From the NCBI GenBank assembly GCA_029553845.1, contig JAKPKF010000315.1, positions 1 through 6,412 of the forward strand: a DNA stretch of 6,412 bases, read 5' to 3'. Below are positions 1 to 6,412 of this stretch, in pieces. The position numbers and the translations under genes are program-made. The notes under the pieces are model-generated. The model saw only the letters and a program-made list of their open reading frames with translations. It was not told the origin of the DNA and ran no database searches. Within the stretch, counting starts at the first letter, position 1. Every line of letters begins with the position of its first letter. Source of the DNA: a bacterium. GTDB lineage: Bacteria > Patescibacteria > Dojkabacteria > SC72.

Positions 1-141
1 CGGGGACTCCCGCCTGGTGTCACGGTTTTTGCCAACGCGAGAATAAACAAGTAACAATCACATCCCTGCATCGCATCACGAGTGCAAAAACACGCGCCAC
101 CGCGACTCGACGCCAACAACACATACCGCCGAACGTTAGCA
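1..141 (+). repeat. Right half of attC-like intergenic repeat, copy 1 (left part outside window)
   Basis: Bases 1-138 align along their whole length with 5017-5154, with only scattered substitutions and two compensating one-base indels. A 35-base block (13-47 versus 5030-5064) is identical. The stretch is much more GC-rich than the genes around it. It ends in CCGCCGAACGTTAGC, which resembles the right end (R' side) of integron attC sites, where recombination cuts within GTT. The cut would fall between 135 and 136. The left arm is outside the window, so the fold of this copy cannot be checked. The repeat relationship is seen directly; the attC identity is inferred. Confidence 0.85.
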
Positions 142-144
142 TTA
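135..144 (+). repeat. Cassette-boundary core GTTAGCATTA (pairs with 4865-4874)
   Basis: This 10-base sequence begins at the conserved GTTA of repeat copy 1 and continues into unique sequence. Its perfect reverse complement is at 4865-4874, at the outer left edge of repeat copy 2. The corresponding bases after the GTTA of copy 2 (GTTATGCCGC, 5151-5160) are different. The match is therefore not part of the repeat itself but a property shared by the two ends of the enclosed segment. Confidence 0.75.
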
Positions 145-156
145 ATGGGGTACGAT

Positions 157-198
157 CAAGTCACATCCTTTACAGAGTTAAAGACACATAGTTTACAC
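157..198 (+). repeat. Left terminal inverted repeat of the IS, with two internal boxes
   Basis: This end is the imperfect reverse complement of 1411-1452. It contains two direct copies of a 12-base box of form ACATnnTTTACA, at 163-174 and 186-197, 23 bases apart. The right end shows the same paired arrangement. Two boxes two helical turns apart are most simply read as paired transposase-binding sites. The exact outer end is uncertain by a few bases because the outermost match is weak (CAAG against TAAG). Confidence 0.7.
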
Positions 199-234
199 TT
201 TTCAGAGCCGTAATTTGTATAAAAACAAATTGCC

Positions 235-1416
235 ATGCCTTGGAAAGACACAACAACTATGGAACAAAAAGTAGAATTCATCTGTGAATGGCTTTCTGGA
301 AATTACAAGATCACTGAGTTATGCAAATCCTTTGGCATATCACGTCCGACCGCATACCTGTTAATCAGCAAGTATGAGAAATACGGTATAGAAGGGTTAT
401 TAGAGAAGTCTAAAGCCCCACGCAATCACCCTAACAAAACCAAAGAAGAGATTGAGTTAAAAATATTGAAGCTAAAAGGTCTACATCATCGATGGGGTGC
501 AAAGAAGATCCGTATACTATTGTTGAACTACTTTACAGAAAATCAAATTCCATCAGTAACAACTATACACAATATCCTTTCCAGAAACGGTCTGGTTTGC
601 CCACAAAGAAGAATACGACGTGTCAAGCCTCTATACCCTATCTATGACCCCCAGGAGTGTAATCAGGTCTGGAGTGCAGACTACAAGGGAAAGTTCAAAA
701 TGGGTAATCTGAAGTACTGTCACGCTTTAACCATAGCAGACTCTAAAAGCAGGTTCCTCTTTACGGCAAAAGCACACATCAGCGAGAATTTTAAGTCAGT
801 AAAAACAGAATTTACCAGGGTGTTTAGAAGGTATGGGTTGCCCAAACAAATACATACCGACAATGGCTCTCCTTTTGGCGCTATTACATCGGTTCAGCGA
901 TTTTCCAAATTATCATTCTGGTTTATAGACCTGGGTATATTACCAGTGTTCTCGGATCCAGCTCACCCTGAGCAAAACGGAAGACATGAGAGAATGCACC
1001 GCGACTTAAAAGCTGCCTGTGCTAAGCCATCGGCAAATGACATGAAGTCACAACAATGTAAATTAAATGCTTTTGTAGAAGAATATAATAACTTAAAACC
1101 TCACGAAGCCCTGAATATGGAGACTCCAGCGAGTGTGCATACCCGCTCAAAAATCCCATTCCCGGAGCGAATAAGAGAGTATCACTATCCTGAACACATG
1201 AAAGTGATGAACGTTACAAAAAACGGATCTATGAGATGGAGATCATATTACTGGGTATACCTGACCAGAGGACTTATCGGCAAAAGAGTTGGAGCTGAGG
1301 AGATTGGTAACGGAATTTGGAAAGTCTTTTACCGTAATGTATTTTTAGGTTACTTTAATGAAAATGATATAAGAAAAAAACAACAAGTAACAAGGTTATG
1401 CTCTAATCTAGTGTAA
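235..1416 (+). CDS. IS481-family-like DDE transposase
   Basis: The 393-residue protein would catalyse cut and strand transfer of the surrounding IS. It opens with MPWK, a start very typical of IS481 transposases. A helix-turn-helix region follows at about residues 12-60 (ITELCKSFGISRPTAYLLI), with a second HTH-like linker around 84-120 (HHRWGAKKIR). The rve/DDE catalytic core spans about 140-300. The acidic triad is visible as D149 (WSADYKG), D209 (HTDNGSPF) and E252 (NGRHERMHRDLK). The PEQNGRHER stretch before the glutamate is characteristic of IS481 rather than IS3, and a single reading frame without frameshifting also fits IS481. The C-terminal about 80 residues resemble the small beta-rich tail of this group. 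No strong Shine-Dalgarno sequence precedes the ATG, which is common in Bacteroidota. The gene appears intact and so possibly active. Confidence 0.93.
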   Translation: MPWKDTTTMEQKVEFICEWLSGNYKITELCKSFGISRPTAYLLISKYEKYGIEGLLEKSKAPRNHPNKTKEEIELKILKLKGLHHRWGAKKIRILLLNYFTENQIPSVTTIHNILSRNGLVCPQRRIRRVKPLYPIYDPQECNQVWSADYKGKFKMGNLKYCHALTIADSKSRFLFTAKAHISENFKSVKTEFTRVFRRYGLPKQIHTDNGSPFGAITSVQRFSKLSFWFIDLGILPVFSDPAHPEQNGRHERMHRDLKAACAKPSANDMKSQQCKLNAFVEEYNNLKPHEALNMETPASVHTRSKIPFPERIREYHYPEHMKVMNVTKNGSMRWRSYYWVYLTRGLIGKRVGAEEIGNGIWKVFYRNVFLGYFNENDIRKKQQVTRLCSNLV

Positions 1417-1452
1417 AGCATGTCCCTTAAACTTTGTAAAGTATCTCCCTTA
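1411..1452 (-). repeat. Right terminal inverted repeat of the IS, overlapping the transposase stop
   Basis: This is the partner of 157-198. On the + strand the boxes read TGTAAAGCATGT (1412-1423) and TGTAAAGTATCT (1435-1446), again 23 bases apart. The transposase stop codon TAA (1414-1416) lies inside the inner box, so coding sequence and terminal repeat overlap. This is compact packing often seen in small insertion sequences. Confidence 0.7.
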
Positions 1453-1486
1453 ACGAACATGGTAAAAAAAAATAAAAAAAGTTGAC

Positions 1487-1517
1487 TTGTATTATTTAAT
1501 TTCGGAACTTACGATTG
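1487..1517 (+). promoter_or_regulatory. Candidate Bacteroidota-type promoter for the lipoprotein-protease pair
   Basis: TTG at 1487-1489 is followed after 20 bases by TACGATTG (1510-1517), which fits the Bacteroidota -33/-7 pattern TTG-N19-21-TAnnTTTG with one mismatch. It lies just downstream of the IS right end and about 110 bases before the lipoprotein ATG. The leader between them is AT-rich and holds a small inverted repeat, TTCTCT with AGAGAA (about 1586-1606). An alternative -7 (TAATTTCG, 1497-1504) has a worse spacing. The call rests on pattern only. Confidence 0.25.
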
Positions 1518-1629
1518 CATTCAGTCTGAAAGTTAATGAATTAAACTTATGCTATAATAATGATTGCGTCTCTGAAATTATTAATTCTCTGAGAAATAGA
1601 GAGAAACAATTCTGAAAAGAAAAAACAAA

Positions 1630-2106
1630 ATGAAATTGATGAAAACGATTGTTTTTAAAATAGGGCTCCTAATGCTGTTTATACTGATGGTTAGAACAGG
1701 TTGTGAGAAAACCAACGAAAATGGAGAATATGCAGATGTTGAATATTTCAAATTTTCTGACTTCGGTTGTGAAACTGGAGATTCTTGGTATCTAAGACCA
1801 GGTTATGTTGGGAAAAATTACATAATCAGGTCTCAACAGGAATTCGAGGAATGTATAGCCATTGAATGTAATCCCCAAATTGATTTCTCAAATTTTGTAT
1901 TACTCATTGGTGTTAAGCTGTTTAATTCAGGAGCATTGCTATTTAATGAAATGGTACAAGAAAACAATTCTGAAGTCATATATACTATAACTTTCTTGAA
2001 AGATGAATCTACAGTCGCTCTTGGCATTCCATATCACTCTATTGTTAGGAAACCGTTAAACGGTAAAAGTATCAGGATTGTTGAAATCGTCAAAGAAACG
2101 CTATAA
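1630..2106 (+). CDS. Small PrcB-like lipoprotein, coupled to the protease gene
   Basis: The protein has 158 residues. A basic N-terminus and hydrophobic stretch (about 5-21) lead to T-G-C, with Cys25 as the likely lipidated residue; the -3 position is Arg, unusual for a lipobox, so lipidation is likely but not certain. Residues about 63-155 resemble the PrcB C-terminal domain: a 'viRSQqEFeeci' start, then PQIDFSNFVLLIGVKLFNSG, then alternating strands and a conserved PYH-containing end (IPYHSIVRKP). This is motif-level resemblance judged by eye. PrcB is a lipoprotein that stabilises the subtilisin-type protease PrtP in Treponema dentilisin. Here the next gene, one base after the stop, is a subtilisin-type protease, which makes a chaperone, inhibitor or anchoring role for that enzyme a reasonable inference. 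An in-frame Met4 (1639) is an alternative start. Confidence 0.8.
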   Translation: MKLMKTIVFKIGLLMLFILMVRTGCEKTNENGEYADVEYFKFSDFGCETGDSWYLRPGYVGKNYIIRSQQEFEECIAIECNPQIDFSNFVLLIGVKLFNSGALLFNEMVQENNSEVIYTITFLKDESTVALGIPYHSIVRKPLNGKSIRIVEIVKETL

Positions 2107-2107
2107 A

Positions 2108-4654
2108 ATGAGAATTAAATCTAATGGACGGGTAAACTTTTTAAGGAGTGCATTTGCATTTGGTTTAGTCCTAATGTCATTAAGCTTATTCGGCCAAAAT
2201 AACAATTATTACTGGTATAAGGGTACAAAAATTCCTTTGATACTTGTGGACAATAAGAAATTTATACTATTTCAAAGTGATAATTCTGATAGCACATTGG
2301 CGGTTCTAAAAAGAAATGAATGGAGAGTTATTAAGAGTGACGTAGACCTTACCATTAACACAATAAATCCTTTTAAGAAAAGTAATCCAAGCGAGGACCA
2401 CACCTGGGCAATCATAGAAAAGGATAAAGTGGAGAATCCGGAATTATTTTTTTCTCAATTTCCTGAATATATGCTTTATGTATCACCATTCTTCACAAGT
2501 CCAAGTGGTGACTTAGCGGGTTTGTCACATCTGTTTTATGTTAGGTTGCATAAAGAACAAGATTTAATTCAATTAGAAGAATTTGCACAGTTACACGAAG
2601 TGGAAATACTTGGAAATAACTATTTTATGCCTTTATGGTATACACTTGCATGTACAAAAAGGTCTCCTGGTAATGCCATGGAAATGGCTAATCTGTTTTA
2701 CGAGTCTGGAAAGTTTTGTGCATCCGAACCTGATTTAATGGTTTCTGATTTGCCTTTTTGTGTTAATGATGAGTATTTTTCAAATCAATGGAATTTAAAT
2801 AACACGGGACAATATGATGGTACCAATGGTTTCGATATTCGATTTTGTGAAGTAAGGGGATTAACTTCGGGCTGTAGCAATATTGTTGTAGCAGTTGTGG
2901 ACCAAGGCATAGAATTGGATCATCCTGACCTTACAAATATGTATCCTTTTAGTTATGATACCGAGTCAAACACTCAACCCAGCCAAGTGCTGGGCCCCCA
3001 TGGAACGGCTTGTGCTGGTATTATTGGTGCTTCTGCAAATAATGATTTAGGTGTCGCAGGTATAGCTTCGGAGTGTCAATTAATGTCTGTTAGCAATAGT
3101 CTACAAGGTACACTAAATAGTCGGCAAAGAAGAGGTGATGGGATAAATTGGGCTTGGCATAATGGTGCAGATGTAATAAGTAATTCATGGGGATCTTCTG
3201 TGCCAAATGAAATTATAAGTGAAGCAATTGACAGTGCCTTAACGGAGGGACGAAATGGATTAGGATGTGTTATTGTTTTCTCATCCGGGAATAACAATAT
3301 TGATGTTTCATATCCAGCCAATTATAATCCTGACATAATTGCGGTTGGTGCCATGAATCAATGCGGAGAAAGGAAAAGCCCGAGTTCTTGCGACGGAGAA
3401 GCCTGGTATAGGCTTGAATACAATGATTATTTAGGTGGAAGCAACTATGGTAGTGAATTGGATATAGTTGCACCTGGTGTTCTAATTGCAACAACAGATA
3501 GGCAAGGCAATGAAGGATACAATCCTAATGTGCCAATTCATACCCTAAATGGAGGAGATAAAATTACTGCTGACTTTATAGATCAAGATTTCACTGTATG
3601 GTTTAACGGAACATCTGCTGCCACACCACATGTTGCGGCAGTTGCTGCACTGGTATTATCTGTTAATCCAACTTTAACTCAGGATCAAGTACGCAATATA
3701 ATTGAGTCTACTACCCAGAAGGTAAGAACAGATATTTACACCTATTCAACTACTCCGGGAAGGACAAACGGTACTTGGAACAACCAAATGGGATATGGCC
3801 TACTTAATGCATATGAAGCTGTTATGGCTGCGATTGGTGGTCCAATTGCTGGTTCATATCTAGTCTGCTCGTCCGGAGCTACATTTTCACTTAATGATCC
3901 GCCAACCGGAGCATCTATAAGTTGGAATGCCAGCCCGTCAAGGTATTTCACAGTGACCTCTGGATCTGGATCATCTTTCTCAACGTCATGGGCCGGCGGC
4001 TTCCGATCAGGAGAAGGGACTATCACAGCGACTATTATTGCATCCTGTGATACAATTACTCTTACAAAAAGCGTTTGGGCAGGAAAACCAGCCGGCGTAA
4101 CAGCTATAAACTTGCTTCCTGATGATGGTGTTTGTAGAGGTTATTCCTACTACTATCAAGTTGGTGTTTCTGATCCATATCCCTTAAATGTAGAATCGTA
4201 TTATTGGGATCTTCAACCGCCTGGTGTGATTATCGGTAGCAATACGGGACCCTCGTTAAGATTCTATTATCCTCCAAATACAACGCTTGGGACATATTCA
4301 ATTGCTGTAAAAACAATTAATTCATGTGGCGAAAGTTTCTATCATATCGAAAACTTTGATGTGATAGATTGTGATCGTGATAAACTGCTCTCACTTATCA
4401 TTTATCCAAATCCTGCTTCTGAGGAAACTCAGATAACAATAAATGATGATGGAATTTCAGATCATTCAATGTCGGAGAGATCAAGTAGTTATTATGTGAA
4501 TATCTTTGATTTACAAGGGAGCGTTGTTTATTCCGATAAGGTGACCAGTAACGTTTTTATTTTGTCAGTATCCGGACTAACTAATGGAACATATAGTGTT
4601 GTTGCTACTGACAATAAAACAATTTGGCAAGGTGCTTTGATAGTATCTCATTAA
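2108..4654 (+). CDS. Secreted subtilisin-family (S8) serine protease with T9SS C-terminal sorting tail
   Basis: The start chosen is ATG 2108, one base after the upstream stop. It gives a clean signal peptide (basic residues, hydrophobic core, ending near LFGQ at about residue 30); the upstream TTG at 2078 would bury this. The product has 848 residues. About 31-220 is a propeptide-like region. The catalytic domain begins with a DEYFSNQWNLNNTG-type entry at about 221 and runs to about 580. The triad is D265 (VVDQGIELDHPDL; Gln replaces the usual Thr/Ser after Asp), H298 (GPHGTACAG) and S503 (NGTSAATPHVA), with oxyanion Asn395 (SSGNNN). About 585-755 looks like one or two Ig/PKD-type beta domains. 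The end, from YPNPA at about 766-770 to 848 (LTNGTYSVVATD), matches the T9SS type A sorting domain. The enzyme should therefore cross the inner membrane by Sec and the outer membrane by T9SS, and be released or anchored at the surface. Its substrate cannot be told. Confidence 0.93.
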   Translation: MRIKSNGRVNFLRSAFAFGLVLMSLSLFGQNNNYYWYKGTKIPLILVDNKKFILFQSDNSDSTLAVLKRNEWRVIKSDVDLTINTINPFKKSNPSEDHTWAIIEKDKVENPELFFSQFPEYMLYVSPFFTSPSGDLAGLSHLFYVRLHKEQDLIQLEEFAQLHEVEILGNNYFMPLWYTLACTKRSPGNAMEMANLFYESGKFCASEPDLMVSDLPFCVNDEYFSNQWNLNNTGQYDGTNGFDIRFCEVRGLTSGCSNIVVAVVDQGIELDHPDLTNMYPFSYDTESNTQPSQVLGPHGTACAGIIGASANNDLGVAGIASECQLMSVSNSLQGTLNSRQRRGDGINWAWHNGADVISNSWGSSVPNEIISEAIDSALTEGRNGLGCVIVFSSGNNNIDVSYPANYNPDIIAVGAMNQCGERKSPSSCDGEAWYRLEYNDYLGGSNYGSELDIVAPGVLIATTDRQGNEGYNPNVPIHTLNGGDKITADFIDQDFTVWFNGTSAATPHVAAVAALVLSVNPTLTQDQVRNIIESTTQKVRTDIYTYSTTPGRTNGTWNNQMGYGLLNAYEAVMAAIGGPIAGSYLVCSSGATFSLNDPPTGASISWNASPSRYFTVTSGSGSSFSTSWAGGFRSGEGTITATIIASCDTITLTKSVWAGKPAGVTAINLLPDDGVCRGYSYYYQVGVSDPYPLNVESYYWDLQPPGVIIGSNTGPSLRFYYPPNTTLGTYSIAVKTINSCGESFYHIENFDVIDCDRDKLLSLIIYPNPASEETQITINDDGISDHSMSERSSSYYVNIFDLQGSVVYSDKVTSNVFILSVSGLTNGTYSVVATDNKTIWQGALIVSH

Positions 4655-4661
4655 TCAGGAA

Positions 4662-4685
4662 GACCCCTTGGGGGTCAGATTTCAA
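4662..4685 (+). terminator. Possible terminator hairpin after the protease gene
   Basis: A perfect GC-rich 6-bp stem, GACCCC (4662-4667) with GGGGTC (4671-4676), encloses a 3-base loop 7 bases after the stop codon. Only a short, weak T-run follows (AGATTTC). A second inverted repeat, GTCGGA/TCCGAC (4703-4708/4711-4716), and a weaker one, GTGAA/TTCAC at about 4719-4735, follow. Position supports transcript termination or 3'-end protection; the poor T-tract lowers confidence. Confidence 0.45.
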
Positions 4686-4774
4686 AAGGACACTATCTAT
4701 AAGTCGGAGTTCCGACAAGTGAATATTTATTTCACAGATTAATTCTGAAACAAAACTATTATAACATGTCAAAG

Positions 4775-4803
4775 TTGACCTTAAGTACCTAAAGATAAAT
4801 TTG
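4775..4803 (+). promoter_or_regulatory. Candidate Bacteroidota promoter reading into the attC-like repeat
   Basis: TTG (4775-4777) and a perfect TAnnTTTG element, TAAATTTG (4796-4803), are 18 bases apart, close to the usual Bacteroidota -33/-7 spacing. Transcription would begin near 4810 and run through the whole structured repeat. No open reading frame follows before 5293. It could drive the next gene across the repeat, or produce a noncoding structured RNA. An inverted repeat CCTTAA/TTAAGG (4779-4784/4804-4809) overlaps the site. Pattern evidence only. Confidence 0.35.
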
Positions 4804-4864
4804 TTAAGGCTCGTACCATAAATGACGGAGAAGCCCTAAGATGGGATTAGGTAAATATTACCAC

Positions 4865-4874
4865 TAATGCTAAC
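4865..4874 (-). repeat. Cassette-boundary arm TAATGCTAAC (R''-like; pairs with 135-144)
   Basis: This is the exact reverse complement of 135-144. If the enclosed segment were circularised by joining the G of GTT at 5151 to TTAGCA at 136, the rebuilt R' would read GTTAGCA and pair perfectly with TGCTAAC here. In the present linear state it pairs with GTTATGC through the four core bases only. Confidence 0.7.
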
Positions 4875-5157
4875 AGGTCGGTATATGTCATTGGCGCGGC
4901 TGCTTTTTGCGCGCTAATCCATTAGATCAGCACCACAAAAACCAGTTGGTGCTTTATCGGCCCGGCTTCGCGGCTAATGCCGCCGGGCAAAAACCAGCCC
5001 GCTGGCCCCGCTCCCGCGGGGCACTCCCTCCTGGTGTCACGGTTTTTGCCAACGCGAGAATAAAGTAATAACATCATATCCCTGCATCGCACCATGAGTG
5101 CAAAAACGCGCGCCACCGCGACTCTGCGCCAACGCCACATACCGCCGAACGTTATGC
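4868..5157 (+). repeat. attC-like fold-back repeat, copy 2 (complete, about 290 nt)
   Basis: The copy is bounded by TGCTAAC (4868-4874) and GTTATGC (5151-5157) and is imperfectly self-complementary. Paired arms from outside to inside are: TAAC/GTTA (4871-4874/5151-5154), TCGG/CCGA (4878-4881/5145-5148), TTGGCGC/GCGCCAA (4891-4897/5126-5132), GGCAAAAACC/GGTTTTTGCC (4986-4995/5041-5050), and a GC-rich hairpin at the exact centre. Further local stems are AGCACCA/TGGTGCT (4929-4935/4947-4953) and GCGGC/GCCGC (4970-4974/4979-4983). R''-L''...L'-R' order with GTT cores is the attC plan, but known attC sites are mostly about 55-150 nt, so this one is about twice as long. A structured RNA or a palindromic miniature element are the alternatives. 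Confidence 0.75.
5005..5022 (+). other. Apical GC hairpin at the centre of the repeat
   Basis: GCCCCGC (5005-5011), loop TCCC, GCGGGGC (5016-5022) form a perfect 7-bp stem made only of G-C pairs. Its centre is within about one base of the midpoint of the 4868-5157 element, so it forms the tip of the overall fold. No T-run follows on the + strand, which argues against a simple terminator. The beginning of copy 1 (CGGGG, bases 1-5) is the right side of the same hairpin. Confidence 0.75.
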
Positions 5158-5292
5158 CGCATGCACAAATATACCCCTTCATCTAATTTCCTATATTCTG
5201 AATCTTTATAACACCTAACGGAAAAAAGGGTAGATCTATCAATAAGATTTATAAATAAATACAAACAGCAATTAGAAATAACAGTAGAAATC
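5158..5292 (+). other. Leader between repeat and TlpA-like gene, no clear signal
   Basis: This is 135 AT-rich bases with no open frame of note. I found no TAnnTTTG element and no Shine-Dalgarno sequence before the ATG at 5293. If the integron reading is right, it is the 5' leader of the next cassette, and the sequence TTATGCCGCATGC at its start is that cassette's own boundary core. Confidence 0.5.
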
Positions 5293-6412
5293 ATGAAAGA
5301 AAGACTCCATTCTGTTATTTCCATATTAGTACTATTAATGTCTGTGGTGCTGATAAATGGATGTAAAAGGGAAATTAATAAAAATGATTTCCTGAAAAAA
5401 GTATTATCTAAAATTGAACAAATCGAATCTGCAAGATATACCGCTACTTCAGGTGGCATTCCTCCAGGTAGAACAGTAGAAACGATACCTTCCTATGAAG
5501 ATACAGAAGAGTATTTTAATCCATGTGATACATTCATTGGGTCCAGTTTTTCAAAAATATATCACTGGAAAGGGTCTCAATATGGTTTTGTCTATGATGG
5601 AAATGCGCAGATTTTTTTGAACTGGGACCCAAATACTATTCGGATTGACAGCTTTCAACATAATCATCTCCCATTCAGACCTATGTCACCACCATTCTTC
5701 AACTACACAAAAAGCATAATTAAATACGCTCTGGAAACAAAAGATAGCATAACAACTGAAATAGAGGATTTCGGTGATTCTATTAAATTCAGTATTTATA
5801 TTCCTAATAAAGTCGTTGAATTTTTCGGAAAGGGATACATCATGGATAACCCATACCTTGCCAGTGAGGACGCATTTTCCAGCTATGATATTTGGATACA
5901 TAAGTCTGATTATCTTCCATTTCGTTATAAGAGAACAGTCCCTCATGAAACATCTTGGCTTATCAACAACAAGCCTGAATTCAATATAGGTAACATTGAG
6001 GATTTTGCAGCATCAAATTATTTTCCATCTGACTATTCTATTGTGGGCCAACAAATTAAACCAAAAAAAAACATGGTTGGTAAAACAGCCCCTGATTGGA
6101 CACTTAAAGATATAAATAACCAACCAATATCATTAAGAGACCTAAAGAGCAAAATCTTACTTATTAAGTTCACAGGAATTGGTTGCGGACCATGTCATGC
6201 ATCACTCCCGTTTACAAAACGGTTAGTGCAAGACTATTCGATTAATGACTTTGAGATCATAAGCATTGAAACATGGAGTAGTGACATAGATTATATTAAG
6301 AGTTACGTAGACAAGAATAAACTGAACTACAAATATTTAATATCAACAGAAGAAATAAGAAAGAGCTATCAGGTCAATGAAGTGCCAGCATTTTTCATCA
6401 TCGATGAAAACA
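5293..6412 (+). CDS. Lipoprotein with C-terminal thioredoxin/TlpA-like domain (3' end beyond window)
   Basis: The frame is open from ATG 5293 to the window edge, 373 residues so far. A short basic start and hydrophobic stretch end in L-I-N-G-C, giving a lipoprotein with Cys24. Residues about 25-260 are a domain I cannot name; its beta-rich text (KIYHWKGSQYGFVYDGNAQI, later YDIWIHKSDYLPFRYKR) suggests a LolA-like fold, as seen ahead of TlpA domains in other Bacteroidota lipoproteins, but this is inference. From about 262 (MVGKTAPDWTLKDINNQPISL) a peroxiredoxin/TlpA-type thioredoxin fold begins. It has the active site C298-G-P-C301 (GIGCGPCH) and the cis-proline P365 in VPAFFIID. Such proteins are periplasmic, membrane-anchored thiol-disulfide reductases of the ResA/TlpA type. 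It is on the same strand as the upstream genes but separated from them by the repeat. The remaining 3' part should hold the last strand and helix. Confidence 0.88.
   Translation, partial: MKERLHSVISILVLLMSVVLINGCKREINKNDFLKKVLSKIEQIESARYTATSGGIPPGRTVETIPSYEDTEEYFNPCDTFIGSSFSKIYHWKGSQYGFVYDGNAQIFLNWDPNTIRIDSFQHNHLPFRPMSPPFFNYTKSIIKYALETKDSITTEIEDFGDSIKFSIYIPNKVVEFFGKGYIMDNPYLASEDAFSSYDIWIHKSDYLPFRYKRTVPHETSWLINNKPEFNIGNIEDFAASNYFPSDYSIVGQQIKPKKNMVGKTAPDWTLKDINNQPISLRDLKSKILLIKFTGIGCGPCHASLPFTKRLVQDYSINDFEIISIETWSSDIDYIKSYVDKNKLNYKYLISTEEIRKSYQVNEVPAFFIIDEN

Follow-up and report, generated by a model that had tools for sequence, protein, structure and literature searches.

What kind of element places two long GC-rich repeats at the ends of a block of same-strand genes? 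The question is raised by contig JAKPKF010000315.1 (assembly GCA_029553845.1), a 6,412-nucleotide (nt) stretch of bacterial DNA referred to here as the window. The original prediction was an integron-like cassette with matching boundary cores; this observation is confirmed in the window and extends to its relatives. Judging from these sequences, the window very probably belongs to an integron-type system of Bacteroidota, as a piece of one of its cassette arrays.

Cassette Boundaries in the Window

Both repeats are confirmed. Positions 2–138 and 5019–5154 are 90–91% identical and share the end GAACGTTA; copy 1 is truncated at the window start, its left edge lying outside. The right flanks differ between the copies (GTTAGCATTA versus GTTATGCCGC), as had been noticed, and the reported inverted match between the flank of copy 1 and the left edge of copy 2 (135–148 and 4861–4874) holds at 13 of 14 positions. 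Outside the GTT/AAC core it covers 10 of 11 bases, a match with a chance of 8e-6 for one fixed pair of places and equal base frequencies. The single mismatch between the arms, A145 against C4864, is position 8 after GTT, which is never paired in relatives.

On these sequence terms, each cassette opens with GTT and 12 bases; at its far end stand the 12 complementary bases and AAC, followed by a long imperfect inverted repeat. Crossover at copy 1 is expected between G135 and T136, and from the pairing rule the next site downstream is predicted to have TGCACGCGGCATAAC, or something close to it, as its left edge. The three cassette genes (Table 1) all lie on the plus strand, again as first described. 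Rfam gives no match to the window up to E 1, and none of the plasmid and phage records matches the window site.

Pairing Between Neighbouring Sites

A left-edge pattern with unconstrained flanks, scanned over a genome collection of 84,980 species, yields 56 stretches, 47 of them labelled Bacteroidota or one of its subgroups; as many as seven copies stand head to tail within 8 kb. Pattern scans of IMG/VR add 11 stretches by right end and 100 by left end; judged by eye, the family accounts for roughly half of the right-end stretches but only about six of the left-end ones, and the rest look like unrelated genes.

The original prediction expected the right flank of each repeat to pair with the left edge of the next, and copies to keep one orientation. 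Both expectations hold in relatives. Across 79 neighbouring pairs, cassette start and cassette end are complementary at 9.42 of 12 positions on average, against 4.29 after shuffling (standard deviation 0.20, maximum 4.95, 500 shuffles). These pairs come from 64 sources, including the window and seven viral-collection contigs, with chance matches retained. The averages thus keep weak pairs such as L002 (4/12, with two sites of another class in between), L121 (5/12), L126 (6/12), L133 (2/12) and L157 (0/12, from a Shewanellaceae metagenome-assembled genome, MAG, where the pattern matched by chance). Pairing within one site reaches 4.6 of 12 over 94 sites, which is the level of the shuffles; a hairpin inside a single site is therefore rejected as the cause of the flank match.

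These results also bear on whether the repeats are dispersed repeats or miniature transposons, with the recombinase a mere neighbour. Long GC-rich repeats are indeed common to many contigs, and insertion sequences do occur in arrays, but the flank pairs with the next repeat and not with its own, exact-pattern copies occur on both strands in none of the 56 stretches, and cassette identity stops at the point between G and TT. Such an origin is extremely unlikely.

The pairing has a fixed internal pattern. In 75 pairs, after removal of identical flanks, positions 1–7 match in 55–71 pairs, position 8 in none, positions 9–12 in 47–67 and position 13 in 24, with values near chance from position 14 onward. 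Position 8 is A in the cassette start and C in the left arm in 67 of the 75, which gives a G.T wobble on the bottom strand and a C.A mismatch on the top strand. A second set of 42 consecutive pairs, called by a covariance model (R1, described below) outside its training stretches, gives 9.45 against 4.36 shuffled, with position 8 matched in 0 of 42. This set excludes pairs more than 4 kb apart or lacking a clear GTT/AAC, and two of its loci (L262–L263) share a genome with training locus L232; R1 encodes the usual position-8 bases, not the pairing. The R boxes GTTRRRY / RYYYAAC, a motif given in a passage of PMC7370490, occur at few ends, namely 14 of 133 on the right and 17 of 135 on the left.

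Site Classes and Folding

Window-family sites (n = 94) measure 229–234 nt in 63 cases, 66–92 in 5 and 278–322 in 13. In arrays lying downstream of an integrase in other genomes, sites are mostly 119–125 nt from AAC to GTT. R1 was built from 21 aligned sites of this ~120-nt class, picked for flank pairing and the position-8 mismatch; in all 21, both position-8 bases are invariant, likewise AACA and CGTT. The inner stem, which was not a selection criterion, shows pair-keeping changes on both sides in 16 of 16 pairs (RNAalifold).

With training sites included, R1 has 64 matches in 20 of 34 sources, and in 17 further stretches it has 62 matches in 12, the five without a match being those around a classical IntI (L251–L255). 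In two sets of integrase-bearing loci the matches share the direction of the integrase (49/51 and 62/62), and in L262–L263 they lie up to 57 kb from it. Within the window family, R1 also recognises three short sites (L002, L072, L088) and two of ~240 nt (L109, L158), and both classes stand together in the arrays of L110, L088, L072, L010 and L002. The window family is thus linked to R1 sites by the pairing rule, a common integrase family, mixed arrays and these five matches.

Folding favours the bottom strand. The window site (4863–5162) reaches −72.6 kcal/mol on the bottom strand versus −59.6 on the top, and against shuffles the full site has z −4.7 (bottom) and −2.8 (top). As an excised circle it reaches −81.1 versus −67.3. 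Among sites folded as circles, taken from 32 of the 62 R1 matches in three loci, the bottom strand folds better in 27 of 27. The never-paired position 8 (mostly C/A on top, G.T on the bottom), together with other asymmetries, makes the bottom strand the better folder. By modelling, the site is attC-like: a predicted bottom-strand hairpin with conserved structure, as an integron should have.

Recombinase of the Arrays

In relatives, a tyrosine recombinase gene adjoins the arrays, as in integrons. The original prediction advised looking for such an enzyme with the IntI-specific insertion; the recombinase is there, the insertion is not. The IntI profile TIGR02249 was searched in 17 of the 27 genome records behind the 56 stretches, and none of these 17 array genomes has a match over the cut-off. 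Of six further genomes behind pattern matches, two have a classical IntI: an Ignavibacteria-labelled MAG (L139) and a Calothrix whose pattern match looks like chance. The best profile match in genomes G008 and G010, and the second best in G009, lies on the array's own contig (L134, L144 and L135), where integrase, attI-like site and array stand together.

The array integrase (397 residues in L144) has a phage-integrase core preceded by about 90–110 extra N-terminal residues. The IntI profile matches on both sides of the IntI-specific insertion and leaves TIGR02249 positions ~181–239 unmatched. Passages of PMC9668308 and PMC8352920 describe IntI as recognised by an additional domain around patch III. 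Two catalytic motifs are 64–65 residues apart in 15 of 18 array integrases, 106 in two IntI, 70–71 in three Xer and 64–65 in two IS91-associated proteins (no clean distance was obtained for the other three array integrases, nor for two Xer and one IntI). Against the solved IntI 2a3v, the insertion stretch is 26 residues long in the array integrase and 68 in 2a3v. The suggestion of a divergent integron or a separate foldback-site system was therefore apt.

A database search lists at least 7,987 relatives at E ≤ 1e-40 among 8,000 scored. A 28-protein tree has Xer and IntI as firm branches (100/100 each), and the array integrases, IntI and the IS91-associated proteins meet in one unresolved fork; a single clade of array integrases is not rejected (approximately unbiased test, p 0.396). 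A larger quick tree places IntI inside the array-integrase group, with support of only 84–85. One recombinase on an array contig (L175/L155, 282 residues) was set aside because it has no N-terminal domain and because what looks by eye like an IS91-like transposase comes after it.

The extra N-terminal domain weakly resembles the HARP (SMARCAL1; PF07443) and XPB damage-recognition domains; a fold search gave nothing at E ≤ 0.001, with aIF1/eIF1 folds tying with XPB. The integrase of L258 (genome G320) is a 618-residue open frame with apparently three tandem copies of the domain. In three genomes (L173, L174, L170) a gene judged by eye to be endonuclease/exonuclease/phosphatase-like follows the integrase. 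Several contigs end just past the integrase gene (G114:C2, G371:C27, G136:C20, G396:C13 and others), as expected if repeated cassette arrays defeat assembly.

The attI-Like Site

The first cassette begins at a conserved core, the nine bases TATAAACNA directly followed by GTT, in 13 loci chosen because their first cassette was found; each fixed place agrees in 10–12 of the 13. In L168 (L144 contig), L134 and L183 (L135 contig), such a string precedes the GTT at which the first cassette starts, and this start is complementary to the first site's left edge. The core lies 70–165 nt behind the integrase stop in 11 of 12 measured loci (1,381 nt in L134), so the integrase points towards its array. 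Twenty further stretches were fetched. In 10 of them the first cassette opens close behind the integrase, at 70–165 nt from the stop in the nine measured (all but L224), and in four (L219, L222, L231, L234) the contig ends within 300 nt of the integrase. By its sequence, the core is a candidate primary site of the kind that an integron has. L216 carries its 30-nt attI string twice on the reverse strand, at positions 1964 and 4970, the second copy being some 3 kb within the array.

Distribution Across Genomes

Genomes were scanned with R1 at E ≤ 1e-6, scoring per genome up to 8 candidates in Bacteroidales, 10 in Bacteroidota, 31 in a cyanobacterial order and 31 in the order of the Shewanellaceae MAG. 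R1 sites occur in 233 of 393 Bacteroidales genomes and 149 of 296 Bacteroidota genomes sampled, and in none of the 100 genomes of the cyanobacterial order. The array integrase, at E ≤ 1e-60 and up to four candidates scored per genome, is present in 131 of the 393 Bacteroidales. Both are found in 115 genomes, the integrase alone in 16, sites alone in 118 and neither in 144, so that sites occur in 115 of 131 integrase-positive genomes and in 118 of the remaining 262 (odds ratio 8.8, p 2e-17). In G320, R1 matches span 39 kb beside the integrase on a 3.1-Mb contig; at least some arrays are chromosomal.

This distribution bears on another explanation, namely that the window belongs to a classical integron, or to an attC cluster without its own integrase, served by an ordinary IntI elsewhere in the genome. 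The cassette architecture, the boundary between G and TT and the bottom-strand folding would all suit it, and a classical IntI over the cut-off does occur in 5 of the 393 Bacteroidales as well as in the two genomes named above. Against it stand the lack of TIGR02249 matches over the cut-off in the 17 array genomes and the 233 site-bearing genomes among the same 393. Moreover, the stretches around classical IntI (L251–L255) carry no R1 site while L250, which has the array-type integrase and lies on the contig of L251, does, and the order of the Shewanellaceae MAG, with IntI over the cut-off in 52 of 99 genomes, has R1 matches in 0 of 99. A dependence on ordinary IntI is accordingly very unlikely.

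Cassette Content and Movement

Most cassettes carry a gene along the array. Among cassettes under 3 kb, the longest open reading frame (ORF) runs with the array in 59 of 71; it runs the other way in 7, and 5 have no ORF of 50 residues. In a second set the count is 59 of 69, with 2 opposite and 8 lacking such an ORF. Among 16 pairs of related cassettes from window-type arrays, eight differ in one neighbour or both, four have the same neighbours and four are untestable; the four same-neighbour pairs amount to two arrays, each present in two MAGs.

Are these arrays still mobile, or are they relics, formerly mobile and now fixed, whose shuffling is old or an artefact of assembly across repeats? 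Common sites of ~230 nt can mislead short-read assembly, and insertion sequences interrupt cassettes. Positions 1347–5154 of the window are 100% identical to JAGVVH010000413.1 (L161), where the next cassette differs; this difference sits at the end of an identical site and could reflect assembly across the repeat, as could the downstream side of the pair L120/L148. In this pair, from two MAGs, the cassette is 100% identical over 1,204 nt and the site behind it over 234 nt, while the site in front is only 89% alike and both neighbouring cassettes are unrelated, a pattern expected if a site travels with the cassette preceding it. On the upstream side, an identical cassette is joined to sites 89% alike with unrelated neighbours, which an identical repeat cannot explain. 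Position 8, moreover, is unpaired in 117 of 117 pairs, as expected under continuing selection. That the arrays are mere relics is thus unlikely, and an active integron-type system is preferred.

Some further cassettes deserve mention. The same cassettes occur in MAGs labelled Firmicutes and Bacteroidota (L114/L123 and L137/L160), probably through misbinned array contigs. Cassettes of ~265–305 nt, too short for a long gene, recur in L117, L137, L161, L109, L114 and L123; they start with GTTAGGGCC or GTTAGTAAC and end with a GCTACA left edge. The array of L002 (IMG/VR 3300001567_000025) directly adjoins genes that look phage-like by eye (terminase- and portal-like), and a prophage seems to lie beside or inside it.

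Features of the Window

Cassette 1 contains an IS481-like insertion sequence, absent from the original prediction, which begins about 13 bases past the cassette start; its transposase scores 192.8 bits against NCBIfam IS481, under the cut-off of 224. Another contig (L111) carries, at a different place, a copy that lacks an internal stretch and is otherwise identical.

Table 1. Features of the 6,412-nt window.
Feature	Position	Strand	Basis or remark
Upstream attC-like site (copy 1), right part	2..138	+	Direct repeat with 5019-5154; homologous right ends in arrays
R'-like arm, GTT + 12 bases, cassette 1 start	135..149	+	Pairs with 4860-4874, 10/12; A145 is the never-paired position
Cassette 1, 5.0 kb	136..5151	+	GTT site at either end
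IS481-like insertion sequence inside cassette 1, ends approximate	150..1460	+	Transposase ORF 235-1416; rve domains
Cassette 1 gene, 158 residues	1630..2106	+	No family match
Cassette 1 gene, S8 subtilase with type IX secretion sorting tail	2108..4654	+	PF00082 7.7e-47, PF18962 1.1e-9
R''-like arm, 12 bases + AAC, of full attC-like site	4860..4874	+	AAC 4872-4874; C4864 is the never-paired position
Full attC-like site (copy 2, complete)	4860..5165	+	279 nt AAC to GTT; GTT 5151-5153
Cassette 2 start, open at window end	5152..6412	+	Bounded by GTT site upstream
Cassette 2 gene, lipoprotein-like thiol-disulfide oxidoreductase (AhpC/TSA; thioredoxin-like), open at end	5293..6411	+	Family match

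Proposed Mechanism and Significance

A working model can be proposed. The excised circle would carry the foldback site; the recombinase would bind its bottom strand, folded as a hairpin, and exchange that strand between G and TT. Exchange with attI would amount to capture, and exchange with another site to excision and shuffling. The extra N-terminal domain may help to recognise the hairpin. The system is read here as an integron by its working principle and not by IntI membership, because its recombinase lacks the IntI-specific domain.

Several points weigh against this reading of the window and its relatives. The window itself contains no integrase, being too short to show one, and R1 misses its own 279-nt site (best overlapping match at E 0.17). 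The position-8 invariance of the training sites is not independent, since they were picked for that mismatch. Of the 56 window-type stretches, 22 come from one MAG (JAGVVH) and 9 carry labels outside Bacteroidota. In six of the 20 further stretches (L217, L225, L226, L227, L230, L232) the test used reveals no attI-type start. Sites are missing from 16 of the 131 integrase-positive genomes, and the 118 genomes with sites alone have no integrase match at the threshold among the candidates scored.

A wider claim is more tentative, and is put at somewhat less than even chances: that this is a phylum-wide Bacteroidota class of integron whose integrase architecture, attI placement and site grammar are all independent of the IntI type. 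Through one to three HARP/mismatch-recognition-like domains its integrase would read the bottom strand in its folded form, together with the fixed G.T wobble there. Classical IntI may even descend from this diverse group, given that it shares the unresolved fork of the tree. Under this claim the class would have been overlooked because search tools seek the IntI domain and IntI-type attC. Passages of PMC9024848 (IntegronFinder 2.0) report earlier only integrases without cassettes (In0) in Bacteroidetes and name one complete integron there, in Salinibacter ruber; Bacteroidota are listed among integron-bearing phyla in parts of PMC8618304, PMC9668308 and PMC2426708. No description of such a system was recognised among the literature matches listed, subscription journals and preprints being mostly outside their scope.

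If the arrays work, a very large phylum would have a gene-capture system, one that current tools probably overlook. They would also test the rule that cassette recombination needs the IntI-specific domain and provide a comparison case for the origin of integrons.

Comparison With Known Systems

Classical integrons (IntI, attI, attC) are alike in their tyrosine recombinase, primary site and boundary between G and TT; in tandem cassettes with mostly one same-strand gene each; and in a folded bottom-strand site whose structure is conserved above its sequence. They differ in that the array integrase lacks the IntI-specific domain (64–65 versus 106 residues between the motifs) and has an extra N-terminal domain, and in that the sites have 15-base paired arms with a never-paired position instead of 7-base boxes. 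Here the integrase gene faces the array and the attI-like site follows it on the downstream side; in most classical integrons, the layout of integrase and attI is unlike this.

Archaeal XerA and related Xer (5hxy, 4a8e), which lack the insertion, are among the best solved-structure relatives in both sequence and fold; the first Foldseek row for the array integrase is 2a3v, an IntI. XerC/D-like proteins from such genomes form a branch separate from the array integrases (100/100). The substrates of Xer are double-stranded dif sites, and it is not known to serve a cassette array. The IS91-associated tyrosine recombinase of L175, so labelled by eye, has a similar core, likewise without the insertion, and differs in its length of 282 residues, in lacking the N-terminal domain and in the transposase ORF next to it.

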